In this document: piece after piece, positions 1 through 9,079 of the stretch
Position numbering within the stretch: the stretch's first letter is position 1
Layout of the letters: each line of letters begins with the position of its first letter
Source: Cylindrospermum sp. NIES-4074
GTDB taxonomy: Bacteria > Cyanobacteriota > Cyanobacteriia > Cyanobacteriales > Nostocaceae
Assembly: GCA_003994795.1 (NCBI GenBank)
Contig: AP018269.1
Span: 434,001 to 498,000, forward strand
Direction of reading: 5' to 3'
Length of the DNA: 64,000 nt
Notes under the pieces: generated by a model
What the model was told of the DNA's origin: nothing
Database searches by the model: none
The model's input: only the letters and a program-made list of their open reading frames with translations
Program-made: the position numbers and the translations under genes

Positions 1-445
1 CTCCATTGGTAAGGTGGAGATGCCAAAGATTGTTGGCGGTGAAGTTGGGTTGGGAGATCGACACCAATTTAGTCTGCGATCGCACTTCCACACCCCGTTG
101 AGCCACTTGCTTTGCCAAAAATCGGTCAAAACGGGTTCGGTCTAAATGCCACCCCGCGCCCCGTGCTGAATAGATGAAATGATTTTCCATCAGGAAAGGT
201 TGCCCCCAAACTGCGGCTTGACTGTGAACTGAGCGAAATTGCTCTGCCTCAAACCCCTCCCAAATGCCCAAATGGATCAGCAGTGGGCGAGCAATAGCAG
301 GTAAAACCTCGCCCACGCGGGGCTGATCGTAGGCTGAAGCTTCCAGCAAAATGATATTGAGGCTAGGGAAATGCGATCGCAACGACAACGCCGTGGCACA
401 GCCTGCTGCACCTCCGCCCAAAATCACAACATCATAGGTCTTCAA
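1..445 (-). CDS. LodB-like FAD-dependent oxidoreductase (partial, runs off left edge)
   Basis: About 148 N-terminal residues are visible and the C-terminus lies outside the window. Residues 2-20 carry a Rossmann FAD-binding stretch (YDVVILGGGAAGCATA), followed by an acidic strand end (LLEAS) and a QPRVGEVLP motif like that of the tryptophan-halogenase/LodB flavoprotein group. No ATG fits. TTG at 445 has AGGAG nine bases upstream, so I chose it; TTG at 451 is the alternative. It lies 24 bases after the stop of the 139-aa gene and belongs to the LodA operon. In the LodA/GoxA family the flavoprotein partner is needed to hydroxylate the Trp that becomes cysteine tryptophylquinone. The LodB role is inferred from this context plus the fold; by sequence alone it is a generic FAD monooxygenase/halogenase-like protein. 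Confidence 0.8.
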   Translation of the reverse strand, partial: MKTYDVVILGGGAAGCATALSLRSHFPSLNIILLEASAYDQPRVGEVLPAIARPLLIHLGIWEGFEAEQFRSVHSQAAVWGQPFLMENHFIYSARGAGWHLDRTRFDRFLAKQVAQRGVEVRSQTKLVSISQPNFTANNLWHLHLTNG

Positions 446-469
446 GGGCAAACTCTCCTAATTGACACG

Positions 470-889
470 TTAATTCTGTCGCACCGCGTAGAAAGAAGCG
501 ACAACCCCCGCTGGAGAAACACCCCCCCTCGAAGAGGAATGGGGAATAGTTCGCACCACAGATCCCACCATTGCTGCCCGTTGCAACGTGGCATCGCTGT
601 TGGGCCAGACTGGCACTAACCAGGCAATATAGTCATAGATCCACTCTTCCCCATTGACCAGCCCCTTGCCCTGAAACCGGGCCTGCATGGGAGAGCCATA
701 AGCTCGGCTACCGTGCAACTCCAGAGACCAGCCGTCGCCGCCAATAGTGCCTTGAAGCAGGTCAAACTCTGTCTCGTGAATGGCGATCGTCCCTCGACCA
801 AATTCCAAGTCATTAAACGCCTTCTTAATATCAGGATCATTTAACAGACTGCGATAAGTCCAAGACCCCACAAAAGGGTTATTGTTCAT
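470..889 (-). CDS. small conserved lipocalin-like protein in LodA operon
   Basis: 139 aa with no signal peptide or membrane segment. It opens NPFVGSWTYRSLLND, then has alternating short strands (GRGTIAIHE, GTIGGDGWSLELHG, ARFQGKGLVNGEEWIYDY) and ends with a conserved-looking VGSVVRTIPHS and PAGVVASFYAVRQ. This pattern suggests a small beta-barrel of lipocalin/avidin-like topology, but I cannot assign a function. Its ATG overlaps the TGA of the LodA-like gene (ATGA), so it is translationally coupled, and the LodB-like flavoprotein follows 24 bases later. The tight packing between oxidase and maturase suggests a role in assembly, a third subunit, or substrate or quinone handling. That role is inference. 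Confidence 0.85.
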   Translation of the reverse strand: MNNNPFVGSWTYRSLLNDPDIKKAFNDLEFGRGTIAIHETEFDLLQGTIGGDGWSLELHGSRAYGSPMQARFQGKGLVNGEEWIYDYIAWLVPVWPNSDATLQRAAMVGSVVRTIPHSSSRGGVSPAGVVASFYAVRQN

Positions 890-3609
890 AAATCCTCTTT
901 ACGTTCAACGCTAATGTATTTCTTGTCTGGAGAAGCTTTATCTTCTTCACGTGCTGGTAAAGGTAAATAGGGGTTGCGGATGATAAAGCCAAGACGAGAC
1001 CATTCCGTGACCATTTTCAGATTTCCGGCATTGGTCTGGGGTACACCACGAGACCAGTTTAAGTATTTATATTGGGGTTGTCCTCCATCAAAACCCACCA
1101 CTTCATAAGCTTGCAGGGGGCGATGGGCAGGCCACCACAGGGTTTCCCATACCTGCTGCTCTCGTTCCAGCCAAGTATCATTTCCACTGTCGGGGTTAAG
1201 TAAATTCCAATCTTTGTAGGTGATATTGATTTTGTGAGTAGTGCATTCATTAAAATCAGATTGCCAGGGTAATGCTATTTGTTTGGTCAAGTCTCCCGGC
1301 TGCAAGCCCTGATCAAAATTGCTGTCCTGACTGAGGTTAGTATCAACTGAAGAGGTGTAATCCTGGGCTGGAAGCCCGCGTTGATTAGCCTGAGCCGCAG
1401 TTTGGGGAAAGTTGGAGAAATCAGGATCAGCTTTGAGTCGGTAGGGTTCTTTATAAATGGCAGGATTACGAATCAGCCAACCCACTTCTCCCCCTGGACA
1501 AAATGCTCCACCCAAAACATTCATCAATACGCCCTGATCTAAATCTCGTCCAGTTTTATTGACCCAATTTTTATAGGGGTGGAATACATCTATCTCGTCT
1601 GGTTTAACCCAACCCTCATCAATCTCGTTATAGAATTTGCCTTCCGCCCATTGTCGCAAGATATGAAGCTGATAGTCAGTCATGCGTAGGAACTTGGATG
1701 GAGCAACATTATTGAAGGGATTATCTCCTGCCAACAGGGGCATCAAGGGCAGGTTAGAGGTGCGGTTTTTGGGTGCGCCACCCAGGCGGAACCGATTTTC
1801 TTCATCCGGTTGTCGCATGATATCGTAGAGAAATTTCCTCTCTTTGCGGAAGCGATCGTAGGTACAATCCGTCTTTGCTTTTTCAAAAGCGTCTTCCAAC
1901 AGCTTTCCAGTGTGAAACTCTTGGAGACATTGAGACAAATTAGGGCGAAAATCCTCTTTTTCATCCTCATTAGGACGACGGGAGAGCTTTCGATTCACTG
2001 GATCTCTTTCATTAATCAGCTCGTTGATCTGATTTTCTAAGAGTGTTACAGCACTGGTGTAGTGCTTTTTTAAGTCACTTGTTTCCGGCTCGGCTTGAAC
2101 TTGCCTATAAAGTTTTTGCCAGCTTTGCAAATATTGAATCGGATCTGTATCCGATTTGTGTTCGATATGGGCTAAACATTCTATGGAGCGGACAAAGGTA
2201 AGGGCTATATCCTTAAGTTTATTCCAATTGTTTTGAGTTTCAAGCTTAGAGAGAAAGCCTTGGTTCGGTTGCAAATTATAGGGTTCTTTTTTGAGCTTCT
2301 CATCCCAGAGGTGAAATTGCCGTTCTAAAAATTCCGCCCAAAGTCCACCATCCCTATATTTGTTAATCAAGTTCTTTAATTGACGCTTGAGAGGTTTGTC
2401 CATGATTTTGGGTGGCACCGACAGTTTATCAGGGTCGATGTTGCCTCGCCCGGTTTGGTTATGGGGAAGATTAGACTCTTTCAGGATGTTAGTCAGGTAG
2501 GTGAACTCATCAGCACGGAACAAAATTGGCCAAATATCCCGATAAAACCAAGGTTTATACTGGAGATTCCAAGTCAGACGGTAGCGTTTCCAATGTCGGA
2601 GGGCATCAGGATCGCTGGTATCAATCTTTTCAGGATTATCGAAAGTGCCTGCTTTGCCATAAATGTCAGTGCGATAGGCAAATTCCCGAATCGCCAAATC
2701 GTAAATTACGTCATCTGCCGTAACGATATCCAGAATTTGCGGTACATAGGCAGGATAGCCCACCACAACCCAGGCAGGATATTCCACATCAATAAATCGC
2801 TGGCGCTCAACTTGCTGAGAATACATCACTAACCGCGCTGTGACTACTCCATCAGAAGTGTCATCAAACCAACCGTCATTATTGGCGTAGGTATCAATGC
2901 GGGGATGTCCTAGCCCTCGCTTGACTGTGCCAGATTTGCCATGACCGCCCAAGACCAGCAGACGGCCTGCATTGTCTGTTTTCAGTTCTCCCAGAGTGTT
3001 GATCGAATTGGGCAACAGTTCTGGCGGAAATGTGGGAGCATAGACATCTTTATTATCTAGGTTGTCTCGACTGAAATTCGCCTGACGGCGATCGCTAACA
3101 TTCACCACCTGACCACCTGGATCAATGATCAATTGTTGGCGGGCTTCTGGTTCTGTAATGTCAGCATTGCGTCGGGGGTGGTTGGCATCATAGCCATGTT
3201 CACCTTGCAGGGCATCAAATTCATACCAGACAGCTTTTTTGTTGGCTAAATACACTCGCCATTCAATGTCCACCAAAATGCCCTCATTGCCACCTCCTTG
3301 GATTTTGTCACCTAATTTCAGGGGGCGACCCTCTGTACTATCGTTGTCGTAGACATACAACTGAAACCGAGCAGCCTGACGCTTGATTCGTCCTTGCCCA
3401 TCTTTGAACTGGGTAATGGTCACTTCGGACTGACCATCAGGGGAAAATAAGGGGTTGCCTTGGGCATCGCAGGCAAGGGGCAAGCCGGTGGGTTTCTCTG
3501 GGGAAATGCAAAATTTGGTGGGACTATCCCCCAGTCGCGCAATGCCGATACCAGGATGAATGCGGTAAGTTGGGACTGCTTGTTTGTCTGTACTTTTGTT
3601 CATACTCAT
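886..3609 (-). CDS. LodA-like cysteine tryptophylquinone (CTQ) amino-acid oxidase
   Basis: 907 aa, with no signal peptide. The N-terminus (YRIHPGIGIARLGDSP) is the signature opening of the LodA/GoxA family, which oxidises lysine or glycine to release H2O2 and ammonia. The two residues expected to form CTQ are present: Cys704 in GGAFCPGGE and Trp782 in ALPWQSDFNEC, 78 residues apart. FLRMTDYQ (about 640) and QWAEGKF are also family-like. M. mediterranea LodA is about 726 aa. The excess here is a charged, helix-rich insert at roughly residues 400-610. An AGGA ribosome site precedes ATG 3609. It starts 15 bases after the tyrosinase stop and overlaps the next gene by 4 bases. Substrate is unknown: lysine, glycine or another amine are all possible. 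Confidence 0.85.
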   Translation of the reverse strand: MSMNKSTDKQAVPTYRIHPGIGIARLGDSPTKFCISPEKPTGLPLACDAQGNPLFSPDGQSEVTITQFKDGQGRIKRQAARFQLYVYDNDSTEGRPLKLGDKIQGGGNEGILVDIEWRVYLANKKAVWYEFDALQGEHGYDANHPRRNADITEPEARQQLIIDPGGQVVNVSDRRQANFSRDNLDNKDVYAPTFPPELLPNSINTLGELKTDNAGRLLVLGGHGKSGTVKRGLGHPRIDTYANNDGWFDDTSDGVVTARLVMYSQQVERQRFIDVEYPAWVVVGYPAYVPQILDIVTADDVIYDLAIREFAYRTDIYGKAGTFDNPEKIDTSDPDALRHWKRYRLTWNLQYKPWFYRDIWPILFRADEFTYLTNILKESNLPHNQTGRGNIDPDKLSVPPKIMDKPLKRQLKNLINKYRDGGLWAEFLERQFHLWDEKLKKEPYNLQPNQGFLSKLETQNNWNKLKDIALTFVRSIECLAHIEHKSDTDPIQYLQSWQKLYRQVQAEPETSDLKKHYTSAVTLLENQINELINERDPVNRKLSRRPNEDEKEDFRPNLSQCLQEFHTGKLLEDAFEKAKTDCTYDRFRKERKFLYDIMRQPDEENRFRLGGAPKNRTSNLPLMPLLAGDNPFNNVAPSKFLRMTDYQLHILRQWAEGKFYNEIDEGWVKPDEIDVFHPYKNWVNKTGRDLDQGVLMNVLGGAFCPGGEVGWLIRNPAIYKEPYRLKADPDFSNFPQTAAQANQRGLPAQDYTSSVDTNLSQDSNFDQGLQPGDLTKQIALPWQSDFNECTTHKINITYKDWNLLNPDSGNDTWLEREQQVWETLWWPAHRPLQAYEVVGFDGGQPQYKYLNWSRGVPQTNAGNLKMVTEWSRLGFIIRNPYLPLPAREEDKASPDKKYISVERKEDL

Positions 3610-3624
3610 AAAATCCTCTTCTAA

Positions 3625-5691
3625 TCAATCTAAGAAGTTTAGGGAAACGCTCTTAAGGCGTAATAGCTCATGGTCTTCCTGGTAATCAGCACCAATCACC
3701 ACTAAGGTGACCTGTAATGTGGTGGTATCTGGTTTCAGAAGGCGTTTAGCGCATTTGGTGACGTTGAGCCGATAGTTACGAGGAGTGTTATGGTCTCTGG
3801 GGCGGAGGTCATACTCCCGTCGTCGCAAGGGTGCTGGCTCGCAGTGACCAGGGCCGCCATAACAGGCTCCATGACCAAAAACGGCAAGATAGCCACCGTA
3901 ATGAGGATTGTCCAGAGGTGTACTGGCATTAGCGTCGGGCAGATTCAGAAAGACGCGGATAAAGCAGGAACGTAATAACTGGGGAACCCGATGCAGCCGT
4001 ACTTCAGCTTTAGTAAAGCCACTGCTCTTGATCGCCGAAACATCAATCATCTTGGAGACAAACCGCCCTACAGGTACTTCTAAACCCACAGGGAAAAGAT
4101 AAGTATTCTTGACATATTCATAGCCAAACCGCTCTATTTTCAAGGTGTCGCGAATTGTGTAACTCCAGGGGGTCAAAACTGCATCTAAATCGGCGGGAAC
4201 AGATTCGGGATGTTGCTGTTGCCATTCCCACCACAGGCGATCGATATTGGCATGAATCGGCCAAAATACCGGATCGTAAGCGGCGGTGAGATTGCTGAAC
4301 ATATCACCCATTTCAGGCTGGCTATACAAGTCATCCAGTTTGTGCAATTTGCGTCCCGCTACCTTGACGGCTTTATTACGATTAGCTGCTTCAGGAGCAA
4401 TATTGTTCTGATTTTTATCACCCTCATATTCTGGGTTCATGCCCCCTGTCCAAATATGCATAGTGTTGTGGGGGTTCTGATCTATAAAGCCATAAGAATC
4501 GTTGTAAAGGCTACCACCACCAAAATCCCGAAAGGATTGTAAACTCATGATCTGCTCCATATCATGGGCTGAAGGATAATGGTAATGAATTACTCGGTTA
4601 ATCGTCCCTCCGTTTTTATATTGACCGGGATAGCGCAAGGGATACCAGAGGGCATTGGCTGCAAGTAGGGCATCAATAAAACGGTTACGATAGTTCCCTT
4701 GGGTATATTGTTTACCGATGCATTTCTCTACAGCAGCAAAAAAATCAGTCTGGGTGGCAAAGGTGGTATAACATTTTTGCGACGGGTCATATACCAAACC
4801 TTTTTCTTTTAGGCATTCTGTGGGAATATCATGCTTAGACAAAAACTCTAGAGATTTTGTTGTCAAATAAGCTTGCAAAGCTTTGGGAATGCGCCAACCT
4901 TTCTCTGGGTGTTCAGGTTTGTATTGGCGCATAGTCCAGTCCCAATAGGGCATTGTCACACCGGGGCAATGATCCTGGAGTGCTTGCTCGAATTCATAGA
5001 GGTAGATGCGATGCCAGGGCAAAAACCTCTCCCATCCATGTTGACAATGATTTTGGTGAATCAGCGCCAGGTTGTTGTAATTACGACCATCTAGCGGCCA
5101 CTTGTTTAGGTTATATAACTCTCGAAAGGCACAGCGCAGGTTTTCCAATTGACTTTCGCTCATGCAGTCAATGTTCATGCGCTGTTTGAGTTCCCCTGCC
5201 TCATATTGATAGTTAGTCACAGATTCGTCAGGATATTCATTACCTGCGATCTCATGACTAAACACAAACACAAGGTCTTTCTTCTCAGTCTCTGTGTTAG
5301 GTTTTTCTATCTCAAACTCATAAGTCTTGACGTTAACAGGACAGCCACTATCAATCCAATCGCTGATAAGTTGGATATTTTCAGCCGAAACAGGATTCCC
5401 CCCCCAAGGCAATGGCGGAAACTGGGAGCCATCAAAGGGGGTTTTGCCGCGTAAGCCTTTAATCAAGTTCGATTGTTCCCCCCTTCCTGCTGAATTGCCT
5501 TCTGTGCTTTCATTTGTACCGCAGCAAGATTTGACTGGAACTGGGGCAATCAGTGGAAGACCGTGTAACTTAGCACTCAAAAACTTTTCGATATCGAATT
5601 CCCATAAGGGTTGTCCACCGTATGCTTCAGGATGAGCGTTCGCAGCCTCTCGCAAAATTTTCTGAACTTTCTCAAAATTACTATTGCTCAT
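3625..5691 (-). CDS. tyrosinase / polyphenol oxidase with extra N-terminal domain
   Basis: 688 aa binuclear type-3 copper enzyme that oxidises phenols or catechols to quinones. CuA site: His218 and His227 ([11 protein letters not shown]) with His212 or His215 as the third ligand. Cys216 sits two before His218, the C-x-H arrangement that forms a thioether in fungal tyrosinases. CuB site: His408 and His412 (HNTMH), and His480 in [11 protein letters not shown]. The spacing from 412 to 480 is longer than usual, implying an insert of about 45 aa. The C-terminal 170 aa form a beta-rich lid-like domain. The N-terminal 130 aa end with PLPWGGNP and [11 protein letters not shown], resembling the tail of a c-type cytochrome but with no CxxCH, so not haem-binding. 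There is no signal peptide. It is followed 15 bases later by the LodA-like gene. Confidence 0.88.
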
Positions 5692-5755
5692 AATTTGACC
5701 TCAAAAGTACAAATGGGGAATTATGAAAAACTCGGTAGTGCTCAAGGGGGAAAAT

Positions 5756-5824
5756 AGACATCTCCAGAAATTAGACCTTAATTTAGACAGCATCAGGATT
5801 TGAGGTTCTTTGGCGGAGATGTCT
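5756..5824. repeat. inverted repeat between oxidase genes
   Basis: AGACATCTCC (5756-5765) pairs with GGAGATGTCT (5815-5824), a perfect 10-bp inverted repeat with a 49-base loop. It lies in the 279-base gap between the multicopper oxidase stop and the tyrosinase start. It could be a regulator site, a weak attenuator or a decayed element end. Confidence 0.45.
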
Positions 5825-5961
5825 ATAAAGATGACGTACCAAACAGCACTAATGTGAATAGTTTTGCCAAGATATTGCTGGACAAACCAGATGATGAGGG
5901 GGTCTTTCTAGAGCAGCTCACAACACTTCTCGAAGACGACCCCCACATACATCGGCTGTGA
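5782..5961 (+). other. unassigned open frame of 59 codons without ATG, possible gene remnant
   Basis: Plus-strand frame opened by a TAA at 5779 and closed by TGA at 5959. The conceptual protein is acidic and compositionally gene-like (LRFFGGDVYKDD, then SFAKILLDKPDDEGVF, then LEQLTTLLEDDPHIHRL), unlike a chance frame. It has no ATG start. It may be the 3' end of a gene destroyed when the copper-enzyme cluster formed. I do not recognise a family. Confidence 0.3.
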
Positions 5962-5970
5962 AACCACTAT

Positions 5971-8055
5971 TTACTGATGACTGGTAGTGTTTGTACCTGC
6001 ACCTTTCGCGGGGTCAACAATACTGACGTTCTGCATCATGCCTTGGTCTTCATGGTCTAGAATATGGCAGTGAATCACAAATTCGCCGGGATAACGTTGG
6101 TAACGGGTGCGGACGACGATGGTGTAATTTGGTTTTACAAAGAGGGTGTCTTTCCAGACGCCTTTCAGCCCAGGATACTGCGGATCATTCGTGCCGCTAA
6201 AATTATCGACCGCACCCGGCAAACTGACATCCTTGTTATTCTTGTCACTGATTTTGACGATCTGGAAAGGATTCACATGGATGTGGAACGGATGGCTGGC
6301 GGCGCCCGACTGCAAAGTCCATTCATCGGCACTGCCTAGTTTCAGCTTCCGGTCGATGCGGGTGTGATCGTAAGGTTGGGCATCTTTAGTATCCAGAGTG
6401 TTGCTGATCTCGAACTTGGTGGGTGAGTTGGAAATGAAGAAAGTCAGTTCTTGTTTGTTGCCTTTGACTTCATTGTCTTTAATGACAGTATGAGGTGTAA
6501 AGGCGGAGAGTTTTAGATCATCTTTCAGATCGTTTACAATGTTCTCCTTGAGCAAAGTCGAAATGGAGAGATTGCCAGCAGCCTCAACAAGTTTATCTGT
6601 CAGATAACCGTGAATATCATACTTTTCCTTTTCGTCTTGGGTCACTGAGACTTCAACCACACCCAGCAGTTGGCGGCTCTCTCCCTGTGCGTTGACACTT
6701 CCCAAAGCTGGGGCAGATGCATCGACCACACAGTATTTACCCGCTTCGGGGAAAACCACGAGCGCATCGCTGCGGTAGCCGGGTTGCAAGGTGGTCAAGG
6801 TGGTTTGCCATGCCTGGGATCTGGTCAGTCCGTCGTCGGCGATGACGTGGTATTTGATTGGATCTCCTGTACAATTTTTGCCGATGTAACTATCGGCATC
6901 GGCGGTTTTCAACGTGTTGAAATTGGGTGGGTTCTCTTTCAACTTCCGAAACTCCAAGTTGATGGTGGCGCGCACACCCCCATGAATTATCCGCCATCGC
7001 TCTATTTCGCCTGCCTTGGCATCCTTGAAGGTTGGCAGAATCTCTCCATTAATACTTGTGTAACGCCCAGATTCACCCCAGGTGCCAGGTCCGAAGAACC
7101 GATTGTAAGACTCGATTTTACCAATTTCATTGGGTTCACAAACCCAGGCAACAACTTTACCTTTTCGATCTTTTTTATCCTTGATCTCACCATTTTCATA
7201 AAGGCAAGCATATTGAATTTGCTGTAGCACCAAGATTCGTTCTTTGATCTCGGCTTTATTCAGCAAGGTGTCAATGTCGCCATTAACACTTTCGCTAGGC
7301 AATCTATCGCCACGTACAATGAAAGCACCTGCCATGCCACTCGCTACTTGAATTGCAGTTGAGCCATGTCGGTGGGGGTGATACCAAAAGGTGCCAGCCG
7401 GATGGTCGCGCGGAATTTTGTATTCGTATGTGAAGGTCTCACCGGGCTCGATTGTCAACAGCACATTATCACTATTGCCATTTGGACTGATCCACAAGCC
7501 GTGAGAATGCAAATTCGTGCGGTTGTAGTTGTAGCAATTAAGCACGTTCTCATCTGTTGTATCACGGCTGTCTTTGCAATCAGGACTAGGTTGATCCGGC
7601 AGTTTGTTGTTCAGGTTGATACGCACAGTGTCACCTGGTTTGGCCTCGATGGTTGGGGCGACAAAAGGTGTCTTTTCACTAGTACCTGTTCCCTGATAGC
7701 TACGCAATAACACTGTGTCATAAGAAGGTTTAGATGGATCTTTTGGATCTCGTTTTGCTGGGTTATTGAGTTCTGCCTTGACATATTTAATATCAAGATC
7801 AAACACTTTGTTGTCTGGCGGTTGATTTTGTTGTGTAGTAACTGGAGTAGCTTTCCTACGGGGTGGCAACAGTGGCGGATTTCTAAAAATCTCTTGTGCT
7901 AATGCGGGTTTTTCTAAGACGCTTCCTGCTGGCGCTGCTTGTACAGATGGCACTGAGAACACCATCAATATTGATATGCAAGCCGCGAAAGCAACCATTT
8001 TCCAGGCTCGAATTAAACCCGGATGATGATTGTTGTACTCTAATGTTTTGGACAT
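5971..8055 (-). CDS. multicopper oxidase (laccase-like), secreted
   Basis: 694 aa. A signal peptide is visible at residues 1-41 (hydrophobic FAACISILMVFSV, cleavage near VQA-AP). Three cupredoxin domains carry all four copper motifs: HSHG, WYHPHRHG, HPFHIH near residue 590, and HCHILDHEDQGMM near the C-terminus. The last includes the Cys linking type-1 and type-2/3 copper, plus an axial Met. Such enzymes oxidise phenols, metals or amines with four-electron reduction of oxygen to water. It is on the same strand as the tyrosinase and LodA-like genes but 279 bases away, so it may have its own transcript. It acts outside the plasma membrane, whereas the tyrosinase and LodA-like proteins have no signal. 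Substrate is unknown. Confidence 0.9.
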   Translation of the reverse strand: MSKTLEYNNHHPGLIRAWKMVAFAACISILMVFSVPSVQAAPAGSVLEKPALAQEIFRNPPLLPPRRKATPVTTQQNQPPDNKVFDLDIKYVKAELNNPAKRDPKDPSKPSYDTVLLRSYQGTGTSEKTPFVAPTIEAKPGDTVRINLNNKLPDQPSPDCKDSRDTTDENVLNCYNYNRTNLHSHGLWISPNGNSDNVLLTIEPGETFTYEYKIPRDHPAGTFWYHPHRHGSTAIQVASGMAGAFIVRGDRLPSESVNGDIDTLLNKAEIKERILVLQQIQYACLYENGEIKDKKDRKGKVVAWVCEPNEIGKIESYNRFFGPGTWGESGRYTSINGEILPTFKDAKAGEIERWRIIHGGVRATINLEFRKLKENPPNFNTLKTADADSYIGKNCTGDPIKYHVIADDGLTRSQAWQTTLTTLQPGYRSDALVVFPEAGKYCVVDASAPALGSVNAQGESRQLLGVVEVSVTQDEKEKYDIHGYLTDKLVEAAGNLSISTLLKENIVNDLKDDLKLSAFTPHTVIKDNEVKGNKQELTFFISNSPTKFEISNTLDTKDAQPYDHTRIDRKLKLGSADEWTLQSGAASHPFHIHVNPFQIVKISDKNNKDVSLPGAVDNFSGTNDPQYPGLKGVWKDTLFVKPNYTIVVRTRYQRYPGEFVIHCHILDHEDQGMMQNVSIVDPAKGAGTNTTSHQ

Positions 8056-8111
8056 TTCTTAATCCTTTGTTACTTTACTGATACCTGGCACTGTTCTCAA
8101 TTAACCCAAAG

Positions 8112-8169
8112 GTGGGCAATGCCCGCGACGCAAGAATCGGGGTTTCATGGCAATAAAAGCATTGCCCAC
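8112..8169. repeat. palindromic dispersed repeat (GTGGGCAATG ends)
   Basis: GTGGGCAATG at 8112 pairs with CATTGCCCAC ending at 8169. The spacer between holds no gene. This looks like the small MITE/REP type common in Nostoc genomes. Confidence 0.55.
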
Positions 8170-8270
8170 ACTACAAAAATTGGCATTAAATAACTGGTGC
8201 AAGTTGCGATCGCTCAAAGCACACGATTACAAACCCACAACAAATGAAACGCCGTCGAGATTTAAAACCT

Positions 8271-8304
8271 AAAACCCTTATCTGGCAAGGGTTTTAATTT
8301 TTTT
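8271..8304 (+). terminator. hairpin with T-run (terminator-like)
   Basis: AAAACCCTT and AAGGGTTTT form a 9-bp stem with an 8-base loop, followed by AA and seven Ts. It reads as an intrinsic terminator on the plus strand, but no plus-strand gene lies just upstream. It overlaps the decayed XRE fragment, so it may be fortuitous or end an unseen RNA. Confidence 0.4.
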
Positions 8305-8410
8305 CTTGAAAGCAACGATTAATTGTCGGATACTTATATGTGCTGCAAACTGTTCTTGTGTGAGTCCAGTCAGCAGCGGCAATTCCCGAATCAATTGGCC
8401 AATTCCCGGC
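8285..8410 (-). pseudogene. remnant of XRE-family helix-turn-helix regulator
   Basis: On the minus strand one frame reads GQLIRELPLLTGLTQEQFAA, typical of the start of a cyanobacterial XRE helix-turn-helix domain. The family continuation (YPTINR) is found only after a change of frame and then meets a stop. Only about 35 residues remain, with neither an intact start nor the rest of the protein. Assignment rests on motif memory, not on a search. Confidence 0.5.
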
Positions 8411-8572
8411 TATTTGATTACCAAAGAATTTTTAATTGTCATCTGTCTTAAGACAGAAAGAATAATAGATTAAAAAAGATAATAAGCATATTGACAGCCA
8501 ATAGCAATCATCAATCTATTGGGATTTATTTATTCTCTGATGACAGTAAATTAATTTACTTATATAGCGGTT

Positions 8573-8668
8573 CTCGGTTGAGTGAGATACAAGAACCCCA
8601 CCCCCAACCCCCTCCCCGCAAGCGATGAGGGGACTATGATGTATCTCATCTAAGTGCATACCGCTATA
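8573..8668. repeat. MITE-like element with TATAGCGG ends
   Basis: TATAGCGG at 8573 and CCGCTATA ending at 8668 are perfect inverted ends around a 96-bp element. Its interior has a C-rich tract (8592-8622) and a second small inverted pair, GAGATAC/GTATCTC. A chance reading frame crosses it. Confidence 0.6.
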
Positions 8669-8776
8669 ATTCAATGTAAATAATCCTGTATGATACCTTC
8701 GCCAACAAAAGAGTATGAAGAGAGAGGGCTGATGTAGTAAAGTTGTGGTCTTCAAAAACGACAAAAGCTACAAACT

Positions 8777-9079
8777 ATGTCAGTATCAAAGAAAAGTACA
8801 AGTCAAGGAATTCTCTTAATTACCGTAGTTGCACCGGGTTTAATTGCTTTGGTAATCTCGCTTTATTACTTTGGCACAGATTACGCAGCACTAATTAAAG
8901 CTGAAACTTACGTCACACAACTAGTAGAAGATGCAAATACCAGTGAGAGAAAATTAGAGTACGCCTATCATCGTACTTTATTACATCGCATCAATGTATT
9001 GGCTGATGGTACTTGGGGATTGTTGGGATGTATGATTGCAGCGATAGGCATACATGGCTTAACTAATTTGAGAGATTGA
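8777..9079 (+). CDS. small conserved membrane protein
   Basis: 100 aa. One strong transmembrane helix near residues 12-32 ([20 protein letters not shown]) and a second near 77-93 ([16 protein letters not shown]), with a charged loop between. There is no known domain. ATG 8777 is the only reasonable start. Its end overlaps the 3' end of trmFO on the opposite strand by 21 bases. Function unknown. Confidence 0.7.

Follow-up and report, generated by a model that had tools for sequence, protein, structure and literature searches.

A group ID-type lod operon with tyrosinase and multicopper oxidase genes in a cyanobacterium, and a proposed tyrosinase partner role for its small protein

A five-gene block in a cyanobacterial genome

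We analyzed a stretch of 64,000 nucleotides from the cyanobacterium Cylindrospermum sp. NIES-4074 (contig AP018269.1, positions 434,001 to 498,000 of the forward strand; G000:C1:434001-498000, on contig C1 of the 7.7-Mb genome), which we call the window and which opens with a block of five genes, all on the minus strand. Read in their own direction, these encode a McoA-like multicopper oxidase (MCO) of 694 amino acids (5971..8055), a type-3 copper tyrosinase of 688 amino acids (3625..5691), a LodA-like cysteine tryptophylquinone (CTQ) oxidase of 907 amino acids (886..3609), a protein of 139 amino acids that we regard as a putative homologue of the N-terminal domain of PvdP-like tyrosinases (470..889), and the N-terminal part of a LodB-like flavoprotein maturase (1..451). 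The lodB-like gene starts at 451 and, as read from the genome, ends about 686 bases past the window edge (L009:11315-12451, 378 amino acids, TTG start). The MCO and tyrosinase genes are separated by 279 bp, the tyrosinase and lodA genes by 15 bp, and the small and lodB genes by 18 bp, while lodA and the small gene overlap by 4 bp. An earlier note on this DNA had described five same-strand genes, the last four tightly packed, and both this spacing and the family matches bear that description out.

The gene content of the block is already known from the literature. A gene for 138 to 142 amino acids without a known domain splits lodA from lodB in 10 genomes, and the operons with such small genes also hold hypothetical tyrosinase and multicopper oxidase genes; the clade is group ID (PMC4417212, 2015). 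The 11 group ID members reported there comprise seven Alphaproteobacteria, one acidobacterium, one gammaproteobacterium, one betaproteobacterium, and one bacteroidete, with no cyanobacterium, unlike the window, and the study assigns no function to the small gene. The operon of Bradyrhizobium japonicum USDA6, for example, has the same five components as the window, where the gene between the lod genes encodes 139 amino acids. Homologues of the three oxidases were noted to be consecutive in Saccharophagus degradans in 2010, and in Marinomonas the tyrosinase, laccase, and LodA are under common regulation (PMC2855505). The earlier note's statement that no operon with this content had been described is thus overturned. 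The window has the group ID layout, the tyrosinase and MCO genes lying on the same strand as the lod genes and MCO standing 279 bp apart. What is new here is the evidence that a cyanobacterium acquired the block, together with a proposal for what the small protein is and what it partners.

That evidence comes largely from G030, a genome from within the genus, in which 185 bp separate the M23-peptidase flank from the trmFO flank; in the window genome, 9,654 bp lie between them and hold the five genes. Both flanks are 83 to 84% identical in DNA to G030, and homology restarts at 8802 upstream of the block, whose upstream end is 8056..8801. G030 yielded no match to the small protein; across the phylum it occurs in 2 of 386 genomes, namely the window genome and G278, a member of the same family with no lod genes beside its small protein in the 20 kb read. 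The window LodA groups with three Acidobacteriota (Shimodaira-Hasegawa-like approximate likelihood ratio support of 95, from a quick tree method). The GC content of the block (0.44 to 0.51) is no outlier against the flank shown (0.36 to 0.50), and no direct repeats were found at the block ends, each end having been scanned separately and not compared with the other. The block was therefore probably acquired from another phylum: gain in the window genome, rather than loss in G030, fits both the LodA tree and the scarcity of the small protein in the phylum and is favored on those grounds.

The Lod proteins and the copper oxidases

LodA enzymes are activated by LodB through CTQ and convert an amine or amino acid to an aldehyde or keto acid, ammonia, and H2O2. 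The window protein carries both Pfam LodA domains (PF17990 and PF18417), LodA_N at 199.8 bits and LodA_C at 138.2 bits, and its best matches among solved structures are those of LodA itself (3weu and 2ymw). It scores 314.1 bits against the lysine 6-oxidase equivalog model NF038172, below the cut-off of 600, and the full LodB-like protein, matched over the whole LodB model NF038171 (1 to 361), scores 291.7 bits, below the cut-off of 400. In an alignment to 3weu_A with hand-counted positions, Cys789 (1243..1245) falls on LodA C516 and Trp826 (1132..1134) on W581, the W581 stretch appearing as a separate, weak segment; C516 and W581 are the cofactor residues of LodA (PMC4417212). Each of the two is kept in 60 of 61 aligned LodA proteins. 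Cys704 and Trp782, which the earlier note had taken for the CTQ pair, correspond to LodA C448 and W509; they are conserved as well but are not the cofactor residues, and that assignment has to be given up. The note had named a failure to align with the CTQ pair as a ground for refutation; this applies to its two residues, but not to Cys789 and Trp826.

The 61 rows of our LodA tree are the window protein and 60 matches of at least 600 amino acids, out of 75 LodA matches. The window protein stands there among LodAs of the same operon type, including that of Bradyrhizobium, in a tree built from these matches and not from the group ID reference sequences of 2015. LodA proteins of such operons fall into sizes of about 750 to 770 amino acids (Bradyrhizobium, Nitrosomonas) and about 870 to 930 amino acids (the window, Mesorhizobium, several Acidobacteria), the extra length of the window protein sitting between LodA_N and LodA_C. 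The LodA/LodB pair of Marinomonas mediterranea shares with the window both Pfam LodA domains, the CTQ residues, and an adjoining LodB-type flavoprotein; it differs in that the window proteins fall below both equivalog cut-offs, in length (907 amino acids in the window versus 726), and in that the Marinomonas tyrosinase and MCO are unlinked to lod (PMC4417212), whereas in the window they are linked.

One might read the operon mainly as a peroxide weapon or biofilm-dispersal system of the Marinomonas LodA kind, in which the copper oxidases would be protective, and LodA, AlpP, and PfaP are indeed antimicrobial (PMC4417212). We think this improbable, since the window LodA lies below the LodA equivalog cut-off and cultures of Saccharophagus, a group ID organism, had no lysine oxidase activity according to the same text.

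The window tyrosinase matches the Pfam Tyrosinase model (PF00264) at 125.7 bits, and its six copper ligands, the CuA histidines 212, 218, and 227 (5011..5058) and the CuB histidines 408, 412, and 480 (4252..4470), are invariant in all 69 aligned tyrosinases, window included. Its first 45 residues hold no twin-arginine (RR) motif. Residues 1 to 211 form an N-terminal extension (5059..5691), and outside the tyrosinase domain the protein has no Pfam match. Such an extension is shared by Lod-linked tyrosinases, whose first copper ligand is preceded by about 215 residues (median, 218; range, 0 to 366, including cut genes and early starts). Cys56, Cys57, and Cys117 each occur in 49 of the 54 Lod-linked tyrosinases compared, the remaining five being gaps at Cys56 and Cys57, and the Cys-Cys pair with the third Cys may possibly serve as a copper-loading or redox site.

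The MCO (Pfam Cu-oxidase_2/3) retains the HxH copper motifs at 183/185, 226/228, and 591/593 in 50 of 50 aligned proteins and the HCH motif at 662 to 664 in 49 of 50, and its N terminus, judged by eye, is hydrophobic and like that of a secreted protein. It is 48% identical over 687 aligned positions to McoA of Sinorhizobium meliloti GR4, whereas the window tyrosinase is 24% identical over 305 positions to MepA of the same strain, which places the two tyrosinases in different subfamilies.

The small-protein family and its partners

Searches of Pfam, NCBIfam, PHROGs, and PDB gave no significant match for the 139-amino-acid family (the best stray hit, among 60 members searched against Pfam and NCBIfam, had an E value of 0.019). 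Patterns from 12 small proteins were run against the genome_contigs collection (one genome per species, 84,980 species) and gave 207 stretches with at least 192 relatives, of which the best 80 loci were fetched and 112 weaker ones were not; the best 80 are those most similar to the query, and group ID is therefore overrepresented among them. Neighbor genes were detected with profiles built for this analysis, and 52 loci had full context, meaning at least 8 kb upstream and at least 3 kb downstream. The small-protein alignment holds the window protein and those of 59 of the 80 loci, and the tree adds 7 rows for a total of 67, 5 of them without a lod state.

The most constant neighbor of the small protein is a type-3 copper enzyme, ahead of LodA: 48 versus 39 of the 52 full-context loci, with MCO in 35. 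The corresponding counts in the 80 best loci are 69 for the type-3 enzyme, 63 for LodA, 59 for LodB, and 42 for MCO. LodA without a type-3 enzyme was found in 0 of the 39 full-context loci with LodA; the type-3 enzyme stands without LodA in 9. Ten of the 80 loci have the type-3 enzyme and no Lod gene, and in all 10 the type-3 gene and the small gene share a strand and stand no more than 512 bp apart. Along the tree of the small protein, lodA appears or disappears at least six times (five without the two longest rows), and four changes are forced by supported branches. Among 288 Alphaproteobacteria, the search centre excluded, three of the four genomes that carry the small protein also have a tyrosinase, as against 16 of the 284 that lack it (Fisher P = 9e-4); this search scored at most 14 candidates per genome, and a few small proteins may therefore be missed. 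In Acidobacteriota the small protein was found in 1 of 247 genomes, the chosen centre only, which makes co-occurrence there uninformative.

Type-3 enzyme, LodA, and MCO all lie near the small gene in 37 of the 80 loci, in several phyla. The earlier note had tied its idea of a joint system to the neighbors being conserved together in other genomes, which they are. A chance neighborhood of unrelated oxidases is extremely improbable, contradicted as it is by this synteny and by the difference between two genomes of the genus, which have or lack the block as a whole.

The partner of the small protein varies between loci. Plasmids of S. meliloti, Mesorhizobium AR10, R. ruizarguesonis (p3), Burkholderia, and R. 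lusitanum carry the small gene with no lodA in flanks of 6 to 12 kb, and the gene orders on such rhizobial and Burkholderia plasmids are MCO-small-tyrosinase, small-tyrosinase-PpoB2, tyrosinase-small, and small-MCO-tyrosinase. The Mesorhizobium AR10 locus includes a flavin adenine dinucleotide monooxygenase that scores 150 bits with our home-built LodB profile. Rhizobium etli CFN42 (plasmid p42d) and CIAT 652 have an MCO-small pair, with no tyrosinase found within 6 kb. Two cyanobacterial loci pair the small protein with a hemocyanin-type protein: that of G278 (L017:10109-12531), which matches both Hemocyanin_M (PF00372) and Hemocyanin_C (PF03723), and that of Petrachloros mirabilis (L093:10652-12727), which matches Hemocyanin_M. 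Four kinds of partner of the small protein are seen: tyrosinases of the Lod type and of the MepA type, a protein of the hemocyanin type, and a PvdP-type domain joined to it by fusion.

Several further features of these loci may be recorded. The R. etli CFN42 plasmid p42d has a gene of the avidin/streptavidin family (L146:8249-8716) about 1.9 kb from the MCO-small pair, possibly by chance. The G278 locus holds an open reading frame (ORF) of 131 amino acids similar to the beginning of its 676-amino-acid hemocyanin-like protein. On a plasmid of R. leguminosarum 9B (L145:2700-10343), a short tyrosinase ORF, PpoB2, DJ-1/PfpI, the small protein, MCO, and a second tyrosinase occur together, and in R. 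ruizarguesonis p4 a DJ-1/PfpI gene comes after the lod operon.

A proposal for what the small protein is comes from the fused PvdP-type partner. On a plasmid of Mesorhizobium onobrychidis, where a LodB-like gene lies on the opposite strand, a 513-amino-acid protein next to lodA has the small domain as its N terminus and, for the remainder, a tyrosinase domain of the PvdP type. The fusion protein matches PvdP over residues 3 to 482 (E value, 3e-90) and the NCBIfam PvdP model over positions 55 to 512 of 536 (380 bits, below the cut-off of 625). Its N-terminal 153 residues score 60 against the N terminus of PvdP, a score reached by 0 of 2,000 shuffles (maximum, 57), and the small family matches the same N terminus with hhalign probabilities of 99.5 to 99.6% and E values down to 3e-24. 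This locus (L022:5986-9547) thus places a PvdP-like two-domain tyrosinase by lodA, and the 12 kb seen carry no annotated pyoverdine gene. The PvdP barrel, described by Poppe et al. in 2018, reportedly resembles streptavidin. PvdP joins an N-terminal barrel and a type-3 copper domain in one chain (PDB 6eys and 6rrp); an inhibitor binds between the beta-barrel and the C-terminal tyrosinase domain and blocks the substrate pocket (PMC9569983). In the window, the proposed barrel would be a separate gene, and the tyrosinase belongs to a subfamily other than that of PvdP. We tentatively suggest, at somewhat less than even odds and from sequence comparisons, that the 139-amino-acid family is a detachable substrate-pocket subunit for type-3 copper enzymes, a PvdP-type barrel acting in trans that has come together with no fewer than four partner kinds.

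A small protein encoded beside a tyrosinase also recalls MelC1 and MelC2 of Streptomyces (PMC9454253), and the 139-amino-acid protein could instead be a general copper chaperone, or caddie, that serves both copper oxidases. It is similar in size to the caddie (about 15 kDa; PMC9454253), and MCO is a frequent neighbor; that it might be beta-rich like the caddie is a mere guess from its sequence pattern. The caddie models of Pfam and NCBIfam matched none of 60 small proteins. We find this explanation rather unlikely: the invariant columns of the small family contain no Cys or Met and a single His (His117), in some loci PpoB2-type copper chaperones, which would be redundant in that case, stand close to the small gene, and MepA is active in Escherichia coli (PMC7010606). 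A search of the window genome for PpoB2 gave no match, but the control matched nowhere either, so that absence is not established.

Proposed function of the operon

A relative of the MCO, small, and tyrosinase genes is the melanin locus of S. meliloti GR4, in which deletion of mepA or mcoA lowers melanin and the double mutant is nonmelanogenic; a conserved hypothetical gene sits between mcoA and mepA (PMC7010606). We assign to that position, by gene order on pRmeGR4b, the product of C770_GR4pB024, a protein 54.9% identical to the window 139-amino-acid protein. The small protein and the MCO of this locus, and more distantly its tyrosinase, are homologous to those of the window, unlike which it has no lodA or lodB in the 12-kb flanks seen; MepA has a possible twin-arginine translocation signal (17.4 bits, below the cut-off). 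The joint system put forward in the earlier note is supported by this relative, by the co-recurring families, and by the one-piece difference between genomes, and the functional guess of the note has partial support.

We favor, with a probability of about 0.57, the reading that the block is an acquired group ID lod operon: a mobile, phenol-oxidizing, melanin-type cassette to which LodA and LodB are a peroxide-forming add-on and in which the 139-amino-acid protein acts as a free-standing tyrosinase barrel. The tyrosinase and MCO would convert phenols to quinones and a melanin-type polymer, as shown for the S. meliloti locus. The small protein would most likely dock on the type-3 copper enzyme and shape, guard, or load its substrate pocket. 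LodA, with CTQ formed through LodB, would yield peroxide and a carbonyl product from an amine or amino acid, and these products may supply the same oxidative chemistry, whether polymer formation or cross-linking. Sequence alone does not separate cross-linking, pigment, and competitor damage as the outcome.

Several observations weigh against this reading. Where both lod genes are present, the small gene lies between them in 56 of 58 loci, an arrangement that suits a Lod role. Together with the 4-bp overlap with lodA in the window, and with the counting of the small gene as part of the lod operon in PMC4417212, it would fit a third Lod maturation factor, one that aids LodB in CTQ formation in group ID LodA, with no special tie to tyrosinase. 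We nonetheless consider a maturation factor unlikely: the small gene stands beside a tyrosinase with no nearby lodA in the 10 Lod-less loci and on several plasmids, lodA comes and goes repeatedly on the small-protein tree, the small protein is fused once to a type-3 copper domain, and in Saccharophagus, although of group ID, lodA and lodB are not separated by a small gene (PMC4417212). The association with tyrosinase also has its exceptions. In three Lod-less loci the gap between small and tyrosinase genes is about 500 bp, and that of L101 could fit a 158-amino-acid ORF. Four full-context loci (L029, L059, L089, and L096) have no type-3 neighbor. They belong to 11 such loci among the 80, and a genome-wide check of these four with L070 and L081 found a tyrosinase elsewhere in five of the six; the genome of L096 has no tyrosinase match at all, and L051, L057, L072, L075, and L085 are short contigs outside that check. 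A distant homologue, in G590, has no tyrosinase, and in G617, one of the three alphaproteobacterial genomes with both proteins, the tyrosinase is on another contig.

The barrel assignment meets objections of its own. Direct comparison of the small family with PvdP fails (hhalign probability, 0.1%, below the best shuffles), and PvdP was not among the matches of the small-family profiles in PDB. The link is therefore transitive: both steps through the fusion hold, and it hangs on one intact fusion. Direct matching of single small proteins to the PvdP barrel was not significant, with a median empirical P value of 0.46 over 60 members and single values as low as 0/200. PvdP-like proteins were sought in 239 Gammaproteobacteria, where the sole match was the centre's own small protein, and a 154-amino-acid gene of S. 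medicae upstream of a small type-3-like protein, considered as a detached barrel, gave no match. As for function, MepA expressed in E. coli and Agrobacterium made melanin (PMC7010606), which makes it unlikely that MepA, at any rate, strictly depends on the small protein, and the 24% identity between MepA and the window tyrosinase leaves the melanin role to analogy of the loci.

Around the block, a 16-bp hairpin (88% complementary; 8264-8302) lies upstream of MCO and is terminator-like on either strand, and an Rfam scan of the window gave no match. Upstream in the genome is a nearby SigC gene (779.8 bits; cut-off, 554) that also scores above the cut-off of the cyanobacterial RpoD model, which supports a cyanobacterial host. 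Elsewhere the genome holds giant ORFs of 2,338 to 3,103 amino acids with repeated Big_9 (PF17963) domains, at G000:C1:2444685-2449700 and other places.

The small gene of group ID operons has so far been without a function. We found no link between it and the Sinorhizobium melanin locus or PvdP in the open-license PubMed Central papers retrieved, and neither LodA nor PvdP appears in PMC7010606. If the barrel reading is true, a family with at least 192 relatives and no Pfam or NCBIfam model would acquire a role open to testing, and a likely product could be named for a widespread mobile oxidative cassette. Besides caddie proteins and C-terminal blocking domains, bacterial tyrosinases would then have a further means of control, and group ID lod operons would be tied to melanin-type chemistry on a defined substrate.

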